From an uncultured Altererythrobacter sp. (GTDB lineage Bacteria > Pseudomonadota > Alphaproteobacteria > Sphingomonadales > Sphingomonadaceae): 32,641 nucleotides of DNA. The notes below the pieces were generated by a model that worked only from the letters and a program-made list of their open reading frames with translations, was not told the origin of the DNA and made no database searches. A program made the position numbers and the translations under genes. This document shows positions 3,793 to 5,421 of this stretch, piece after piece (positions within the stretch are counted from its first letter, which is position 1; each line of letters starts with the position of its first letter). Location of the stretch: NCBI GenBank assembly GCA_913055595.1, contig CAJXLD010000004.1, positions 1-32,641 on the forward strand, written 5' to 3'.

Positions 3793-3825
3793 AAGGCCCG
3801 CCCGGAAAAATCCGGGCGGGCTTTA
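3793..3825 (+). terminator. intrinsic terminator downstream of fhs
   Basis: GCCCGCCCGGA (3796-3806) - AAAA - TCCGGGCGGGC (3811-3821), perfect 11-bp stem followed by TTTATT. Confidence 0.85.
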
Positions 3826-3870: not shown

Positions 3871-4461
3871 ATGGAAGCGGAGGATTTCATCACCGACAGC
3901 GCCATTGCGGCGGTCGTAACCGACCCGCGGCAGCCCGATAATCCAATTGTCGCCTGCAATGATGCCTTTGTCGAACTGACCGGATATAGCCGAGAAGAGA
4001 TACTCGGACAGAACTGCAGGTTTCTCAGAGGGCCTGGTACCGAGCCATGGCAGACCGAAACACTGCGCAGTGCCATCGCACGGCAAAGGCCGGCCATGGT
4101 GGAGATTCTCAATTACAAGAAGGACGGCCAGCCTTTCCGCAACGCAGTGATGATATCGCCGGTCTTCGATGATTCCGGCGCGCTGGCCTATTACATTGGA
4201 TCGCAGGTCGAGTTGGCAGACGATTCACCTCGAGCGAACGAGCCTAGACGGGAGCATGCCTACAAGAGGGTAAACGAACTCAGTCCTCGTCAGCGCGAGG
4301 TTCTGGTAGAGATGTCCCAGGGACGAATGAACAAGCAGATCGCTTTCAAACTCGATCTCACCGAACGTACGGTAAAGATGCATCGCGCTGCCATGATCGA
4401 CTCTCTCGGAGTCAAGACAACTGCTGAAGCTATCCGGATTGCAGTTGAAGCAGGCTATTGA
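3871..4461 (+). CDS. LOV-domain / LuxR-type HTH blue-light transcription factor (EL222-like)
   Basis: LOV adduct motif GQNCRFLRGPGTEPW, flavin-contact NYKKDGQPFRNAV and GSQVE, then HTH_LuxR LSPRQREVLVEMSQGRMNKQIAFKLDLTERTVKMHRAAMIDSLGVKTTAEAIRIAVEAGY. Confidence 0.92.
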   Translation: MEAEDFITDSAIAAVVTDPRQPDNPIVACNDAFVELTGYSREEILGQNCRFLRGPGTEPWQTETLRSAIARQRPAMVEILNYKKDGQPFRNAVMISPVFDDSGALAYYIGSQVELADDSPRANEPRREHAYKRVNELSPRQREVLVEMSQGRMNKQIAFKLDLTERTVKMHRAAMIDSLGVKTTAEAIRIAVEAGY

Positions 4462-4483
4462 AACCTGTCCCTTTTGACAGGTT
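4462..4483. promoter_or_regulatory. perfect palindrome between LOV-HTH gene and OMP gene (operator or weak hairpin)
   Basis: AACCTGTC (4462-4469) - CCTTTT - GACAGGTT (4476-4483). Confidence 0.5.
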
Positions 4484-4560
4484 GAAAGAGTAGCCTGCCT
4501 GCCTCATTTATTCGTCCGCAATGACGACAAACGCGTCGCAACCAAGGACGAGGAATGACC

Positions 4561-5322
4561 ATGAAGAAATATGTATGCGCCATCGCGTTGGCTGGTGTTA
4601 CCTTGCCCGGTACAGCGCATGCTGGTGAAGCCTACCTGGGCGTCAGCGGCGGCGCGCAGTTCGCTGAGAATTCAAACAACCAGGGTGAATTTACGGCCGA
4701 CGTTGCAGCTACTCCGGACTGGGGAGCGATCCCGTCGGGTACGTCGCTTGCCTGGGCTACTGATTTCGAAACCGGATACCACATGGGGCTCCATCTCGGA
4801 TATGAGTTCGATAGCGGTTTCAGGACCGAAATCGAAGTGTTCTATGGCCGTAATGATGTGGATTCGCACGCCAACCTTGCCGCTGGCGGTGCAGTAATCG
4901 ACGGTGTCGATGTCGCCGTCCTGACGCGAGGCGCACCCGATGCAGCAAACCCGACTGTCGGGGCAGTGATTGCTGACGGCCAGGGCTCGTTGAAGACAAT
5001 GGGCGTATTCCTGAACGGCTTTTACGATTTCGAAGCTGGTGGCGGCTTTAGCCCCTATGTAGGCGCGGGCATCGGCTTGAACGGCGTCGCGGTGAAATAC
5101 ATGCCCTCAGGCGTGCCTGTTGCCGACGACACCAAGTCGAGCTTTTCCTGGCAGCTTATGGCAGGTGGTACATTCGATCTTTCCGACAATGCCGAGATCT
5201 ATGGACAATTGACATATCGCGGCATGGAGCGCGTCGATATTCCGCTGACCTTGCTCCCGGCAGACCTTGGCGTGAAGTCCAACCAGACCATTGCCAGCCT
5301 GGGGCTGCGCTTCAAACTCTGA
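4561..5322 (+). CDS. outer-membrane beta-barrel protein
   Basis: Signal peptide MKKYVCAIALAGVTLPGTAHA, amphipathic strand pattern, YVGAGIGLNGVAVKY and TIASLGLRFKL C-terminal strand. ATG 4555 is an alternative start; both have an SD-like sequence. Confidence 0.8.
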   Translation: MKKYVCAIALAGVTLPGTAHAGEAYLGVSGGAQFAENSNNQGEFTADVAATPDWGAIPSGTSLAWATDFETGYHMGLHLGYEFDSGFRTEIEVFYGRNDVDSHANLAAGGAVIDGVDVAVLTRGAPDAANPTVGAVIADGQGSLKTMGVFLNGFYDFEAGGGFSPYVGAGIGLNGVAVKYMPSGVPVADDTKSSFSWQLMAGGTFDLSDNAEIYGQLTYRGMERVDIPLTLLPADLGVKSNQTIASLGLRFKL

Positions 5323-5373
5323 ATACCCGTACGGTTCCCCTCCCTCCCCCAACTCAGGGATTCGTACCAACTT

Positions 5374-5406
5374 GGGGCCGCTCCATGAGGAGCGGCCCCT
5401 TCTTTT
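5374..5406 (+). terminator. intrinsic terminator downstream of the OMP gene (possibly bidirectional)
   Basis: GGGGCCGCTCC (5374-5384) - ATGA - GGAGCGGCCCC (5389-5399) followed by TTCTTTT. Confidence 0.85.
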
Positions 5407-5421
5407 CGGGCTGCGCTGACC

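Follow-up and report, generated by a model that had tools for sequence, protein, structure and literature searches.

What do light-activated one-component regulators of the EL222 type control in nature? EL222 has found wide use as a transcription factor in optogenetics, yet the natural role given for it in a 2014 review was only the binding of a DNA consensus sequence (PMC4844311). In this work, we analysed a stretch of 32,641 nucleotides from an uncultured Altererythrobacter sp. (hereafter the window), in which a gene for a LOV-HTH photoreceptor is followed by an outer-membrane protein (OMP) gene, with a palindrome in the gap between them. A first-pass annotation had proposed that the two genes constitute a pair of light regulator and envelope protein; we asked what is conserved behind LOV-HTH genes in the nearest relative, in the genus and at the locus of EL222 itself.

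A LOV-HTH regulator of an EL222 sister subfamily

The LOV-HTH gene (3871..4461, + strand) encodes a predicted photoreceptor and transcription regulator of 196 aa, identified by its open reading frame, domains, homology and position in the tree. Profile searches recovered the Pfam domains PAS_9 and GerE, the latter at residues 136-191 (E=9e-16), and this C-terminal LuxR-type HTH is the only output domain of the protein. Its best solved relative is EL222 (8a5r, E=8e-68; 3p7n, E=1.5e-67; over residues 5-195), to which it is about 54% identical. In the alignment, C49, N81, N91 and Q112 of the window protein correspond, with an offset of 26, to C75, N107, N117 and Q138 of EL222; the photoactive Cys, the flavin-contacting Asn pair and the Gln are all present. 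The LOV residues and the LuxR-type HTH claimed by the first-pass annotation are thus confirmed by the alignment and by Pfam, and the shorter N-terminus that it had suggested is borne out, EL222 being longer by about 26 N-terminal residues. Its description of the protein as EL222-like holds for homology, residues and HTH, but requires narrowing as to subfamily: the window protein belongs to a separate clade of 21 rows, outside the EL222 subfamily proper and divided from the 38-row EL222 side with a support of 100/100, and the recognition helix reads ERTVKMHRAAM in the window subfamily vs EKTVKMHRGLV in the EL222 type. These comparisons support the classification of the window LOV-HTH as an EL222-like one-component regulator, though one whose sister subfamily differs from EL222 in recognition helix and operator.

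Upstream of the gene, a perfect 10-bp G+C stem (GCCCGCCCGG-AAAAAT-CCGGGCGGGC, 3796-3821) followed by TTTATT was noted by eye; it probably terminates the transcript of the formate-THF ligase gene, and the LOV-HTH gene is therefore likely transcribed on its own. As a further observation, three genomes of the family (G263, G176 and G230) carry two LOV-HTH genes each, and the G263 pair comprises one protein 66% and another 54% identical to that of the window.

Palindrome, hairpin and promoter-like elements in the gap

Directly behind the LOV-HTH gene lies the palindrome AACCTGTC-CCTTTT-GACAGGTT (8-6-8; 4462..4483, + strand), with the core TGTCCCTTTTGACA at 4466-4479, a putative operator by its sequence and conservation. 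Its right arm is overlapped by the -35-like TTGAAA (4482..4487, +; a consensus match only), and 17 bp further on lies CATTTA (4505..4510, +), a weak -10-like match. The palindrome, the TTGAAA and the gene coordinates given by the first-pass annotation proved exact, and the possible -35 that it placed at the palindrome edge is joined by this -10-like element, both being echoed in the nearest relative (locus L012, below); a consensus promoter scan called no promoter at TTGAAA/CATTTA. Folding further revealed a longer nested inverted repeat or hairpin of 49 nt (4450..4498, +; outer arms GCAGGCTA and TAGCCTGC), absent from the earlier annotation and located in a region (4440-4560) with a fold z of -7.4. 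This hairpin is followed by no T-run and was not called by the terminator scan; a dispersed repeat is ruled out by its single copy in the window's own genome, and Rfam at gathering scores had no match anywhere in the window. GCGTCG (4533) was considered as the counterpart of the GCATCG stem base of the relatives and rejected, with a spacing off by about 17 nt (hand count) and no partner strand seen.

Since the window holds 17 perfect 8-bp inverted repeats with loops of 3-10 nt, the palindrome by itself is unremarkable, and its significance derives from the preservation of its arms in L012 and from its uniqueness: the right-half pattern CCNNWWNGNCAGGTTGA has one exact match in the entire own genome (86.7% complete), at the palindrome. 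In the 200 bp downstream of the window LOV gene, no site reaches 11/12 of the published EL222 consensus operator, RGNCYWWRGNCY (PMC10521638); a TGNCCNWWNGGNCA-like core is found there instead. Because the EL222 consensus is unmatched, assignment of the window operator relied on its location, its conservation and a motif that had itself been derived from the sites concerned; on these grounds, the palindrome at 4462-4483 is most likely the operator of the window LOV-HTH.

Conservation in the nearest relative and in the window subfamily

The nearest relative is the Erythrobacter MAG Ww135 (locus L012, same contig region as L022/G020), whose LOV protein is 86% identical to that of the window and whose gene order is the same (LOV, OMP, SnoaL-like, peptide deformylase). 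Within a 99-bp LOV-OMP gap of 59% identity, its palindrome, AACCTGTC-CATAGT-GACAGGTT, retains both arms unchanged around a changed centre, and is accompanied by a -35-like TTGAGA and a -10-like CATTTT, so that TTGA[AG]A-17-CATTT[AT] is common to both loci. The outer hairpin arms are partly kept in L022, the inner arms being identical.

Conservation of the palindrome next to orthologues, a check proposed with the first-pass annotation, was thereby observed in L012, and a similar core follows the LOV stops of the subfamily: 10/21 window-subfamily loci have a TGNCCNWWNGGNCA core at 13-14/14 no more than 70 bp from the LOV stop, vs 1% of shuffles, a descriptive count rather than a test, the motif having been drawn from the same sites that were counted. 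Two other genomes, G022 and G015, contain a single exact match of CCNNWWNGNCAGGTTGA each, which lies inside the LOV locus, ahead of a fasciclin gene in the former and of a similar small secreted-protein gene (fasciclin by eye) in the latter; the exact matches in G020 and G038 are apparently coding. A second operator-like copy, TGCCCCAAAGGTCAGGTTGA, was also seen ahead of the fasciclin or fasciclin-like gene beside LOV (L052/L023, L053/L024). Downstream of the operator, G022 and G015 still carry a C-rich hairpin with a terminator, both identified by eye; in the window and in L012, this slot is taken by the OMP gene.

The OMP gene and its 3' end

The gene at 4561..5322 (+) encodes an outer-membrane beta-barrel protein of 253 aa with a signal peptide by eye, assigned to Pfam OMP_b-brl (48.9 bits vs a cut-off of 28.7, E=1e-12); its start was set at 4561 because the L012 homologue begins there too. 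The region behind it (5315-5415, fold z=-4.2) contains a C-rich stem-loop with the loop TTCCCCTCCCTCCCCC (5329..5367, +), a possible 3'-UTR small RNA, followed by an intrinsic terminator with an 11-bp stem found by the terminator scan (5374..5399, +), and this stem-loop and terminator region (5329-5399) is kept in L012. The suhB model (RF00519) scores 27.9 bits at 5335-5413, under its 41-bit gathering threshold, and a proper suhB (49.6 bits) is present elsewhere in the own genome, on C42. The C-rich element may represent the terminator region only, or the stem-loop may be released from the OMP mRNA as an anti-Shine-Dalgarno-type small RNA.

This OMP gene stands beside the LOV-HTH gene in only 2/30 genus LOV loci examined, those of the window and of its closest relative (L022). 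OMP homologues elsewhere in the genus are 33-49% identical and located away from LOV genes, and the C-rich 3' element is absent from those with a readable 3' flank. Among the loci compared, the LOV-OMP pairing is local, resting on two species. As a general arrangement, the proposed light regulator/envelope-protein pair is thus not supported: by the refuting condition given with the first-pass annotation, the OMP neighbour fails outside the window species and one relative, but the operator slot is kept. Separately, many of the genus OMP homologues away from LOV share a GGAAC-containing upstream block (L184, L186, L187, L189, L191, L194 and L199), possibly a sigma-EcfG-type promoter.

Putative operator and candidate RNA behind EL222-type genes of the genus

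Among the EL222-type LOV loci of the genus, 22/25 have a site with at least 11/12 agreement to the EL222 consensus in the first 60 bp after the LOV stop (vs 10% of shuffles), and 13/25 have one at 12/12 (vs 0.8%); an operator-like site and then an RNA-like element follow the gene in 24 of these 25 loci. The distance from operator centre to RNA stem base is 43-44 nt in 24/24 loci, that from LOV stop to operator ranging over 19-49. The fixed spacing ties the operator to the downstream element, as would be expected if an activator bound immediately ahead of a transcription start. One LOV-HTH gene (L068, in G035) was observed with neither operator nor RNA and with an unrelated region behind it. 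Across these loci, it is an operator that is conserved behind the LOV gene, joined in most genus relatives by a C-rich structured RNA; the OMP gene is not the conserved partner.

The element measures 77-92 nt and its lengths fall in all three phases; it is therefore non-coding. Folded singly, all 24 sequences (23 genus loci and the native EL222 locus) are closed by a stem that encloses an inner hairpin, whose loop is C/U-rich, and on the 3' side a further single strand that is likewise C/U-rich. Pairing in the 14-bp closing stem reaches 96.7%; both sides have changed in 9/14 of its pairs, compared with 2.5 for shuffled sequences and no more than two for slid ones, and C-rich motifs behind EL222-type LOV genes number 134 on the LOV strand vs 7 complements. 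A covariance model detected one strong site each in 29/40 genus genomes, always directly behind LOV and on the same strand, including five genomes outside the model set (G002, G004, G005, G012 and G019); it found no site in five genus genomes without a LOV-HTH match, in five of the window subfamily, or in G035. For 11 of the 16 loci with longer flanks, the gene that comes next is encoded on the opposite strand, according to heuristic gene calls with a coding-composition filter against spurious GC-rich ORFs. Rfam at E<=1 gave no match in the EL222-type loci searched. With these features, the genus stem-loop is a candidate small RNA resembling anti-Shine-Dalgarno RNAs.

Across 251 family genomes, under stricter filters, the genus RNA model matched in the genus only and in no other genera. 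Differing RNAs of similar style were seen by eye behind LOV-HTH genes of other genera and, because the genus model misses them, the wider claim rests on anatomy. The neighbours in those genera are often light-related: in three family genomes (L152, L155 and L156), the LOV-HTH gene and then a C-rich hairpin are succeeded by a bacteriorhodopsin-like gene (Pfam), and a photolyase (two loci) or GTP cyclohydrolase I gene lies directly behind LOV-HTH (L014 2371-3747; L132 2247-3584; L144 706-1311, - strand).

The native EL222 locus

Genome G246 encodes EL222 (100% identity over the 191 residues compared), and we infer that it is E. litoralis HTCC2594. Behind the gene stands GGGCCAAGGTCCATATTTT, then GTGACTGGGTCGGGCCGG...TTTCCTCCTGTCCCTCCCG...CTGGCCCGGTCAC, with 44 nt from operator centre to RNA stem (hand count); the extended pattern RGNCYWWRGNCCRTATTT, allowing at most one mismatch, has its sole occurrence in G246 here. 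The element folds as one long stem, whose z against shuffles (-2.8) is more modest than the values of -4.7 to -7.3 obtained for four genus RNAs. By its anatomy, the EL222 genome carries the same operator and RNA-like arrangement as the genus relatives. No report of an RNA behind EL222-type genes was found in the literature searched, a search to which the primary EL222 DNA-site papers were external, and the papers within it that name both EL222 and sRNA are, judged by titles, reviews or tool papers. The RNA is apparently unreported, a claim of newness that excludes the binding site itself.

Discussion

With the integration of these findings, we assign a probability of roughly 0.6 to the reading in which the window LOV-HTH is a blue-light activator of the adjacent OMP gene through the palindrome, as a variant of a module composed of LOV-HTH gene, operator, promoter and target. 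Blue light would form the cysteinyl-flavin adduct, which would free the LuxR-type HTH and allow dimerisation, as reported for EL222 (PMC4428443); the dimer would then bind the palindrome directly behind its own gene and thereby turn on transcription of the OMP mRNA, from a class-II site that overlaps the -35 and lies some 44 bp ahead of the OMP start. A start some 7 nt after CATTTA would set the operator centre near -44 (hand count), a geometry as in the relatives. The mRNA would end in the C-rich stem-loop and terminator, which may be set free as a small RNA of the anti-Shine-Dalgarno type. The target behind EL222 and in most genus relatives would be the standalone C/U-rich stem-loop RNA, itself able to pair with G-rich leaders, as GsrN does. 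For all these loci we infer light activation, DNA binding, transcription and RNA function from sequence comparison. With slightly less assurance, we also favour a broader proposal, namely that a light-induced small RNA of the anti-Shine-Dalgarno type is the conserved natural target adjoining EL222-type photoreceptors, and that this output was rewired in the window lineage to an OMP gene with a C-rich 3' UTR stem-loop, together with a changed recognition helix and operator.

Alternatively, the palindrome could form the core of a long RNA hairpin (4450-4498) by which the LOV transcript is terminated or protected, and the OMP gene would then have an unrelated promoter of its own. The strength of that fold and its beginning at the LOV gene end speak for this reading, which we nevertheless regard as unlikely, given a hairpin that lacks a T-run and escapes the terminator scan, outer arms only partly kept in L022 around identical inner ones, and operator-like sites at the same place in related loci devoid of such a hairpin. 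OMP genes are often under separate regulation, and the palindrome deviates from the EL222 consensus; both points would suit an operator for another regulator of the OMP gene, with the LOV-HTH acting elsewhere. Similar cores, however, follow window-subfamily LOV genes that have no OMP neighbour, and this possibility seems to us a shade less probable than the hairpin.

Regarding the relatives, the conserved stem-loop could be a terminator, a leader or a DNA element instead of a small RNA, as its position between gene ends and the same-strand gene that follows it in some wider-family loci (rhodopsin, photolyase) would allow. Its distance is fixed to the operator and not to the stop codon, however, its closing stem covaries and has no T-run beyond it, the following gene is mostly on the opposite strand, and the C-rich motifs show the strand bias described above, so we consider this the least probable of the alternatives. 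The likeliest interpretation is that the LOV-OMP pair represents a locally confined version of the LOV-operator-target module, and that the commonest target in the genus is the candidate small RNA.

This arrangement suggests what EL222-like light switches control in nature. The structured RNA behind EL222, at a fixed distance after the only extended-operator match in its genome, offers a concrete target that is testable in a cultured strain and, if the proposal is true, would couple a one-component photoreceptor with control by small RNAs, with blue light acting directly on post-transcriptional control. Furthermore, the window subfamily provides a second LOV-HTH/operator pair, apparently with different specificity.

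Compared with known systems, the window protein shares with EL222 of Erythrobacter litoralis (PDB 3p7n, 8a5r) the LOV and LuxR-type HTH domains, the photochemical residues and an operator directly behind the gene, and differs in sequence (~54% identity), N-terminus (~26 residues longer in EL222), subfamily, recognition helix and operator. The genus RNA resembles GsrN-type RNAs in being structured and in exposing a C-rich loop, for which G-rich leaders are the expected pairing partners; GsrN of Caulobacter is a C-rich RNA that pairs with such leaders, and a gsrN-like gene was not apparent in E. litoralis (PMC5869019). However, GsrN has a sigma-EcfG promoter and a general stress locus, whereas the genus RNA is preceded by a LOV-HTH gene with an operator of the EL222 type. 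The suhB/mmgR family (RF00519) likewise presents a C-rich loop and then a terminator, and the window 3' element matches it weakly, below threshold, along the model length. The CcsR RNAs of Rhodobacter (PMC7074977) are singlet-oxygen-induced small RNAs of a light-exposed alphaproteobacterium, likened here by description, with no homology implied. Finally, in pBLind and related engineered promoters driven by EL222 (PMC9614035), an EL222 operator upstream of the -35 activates transcription, and the natural loci described here appear similar in geometry.
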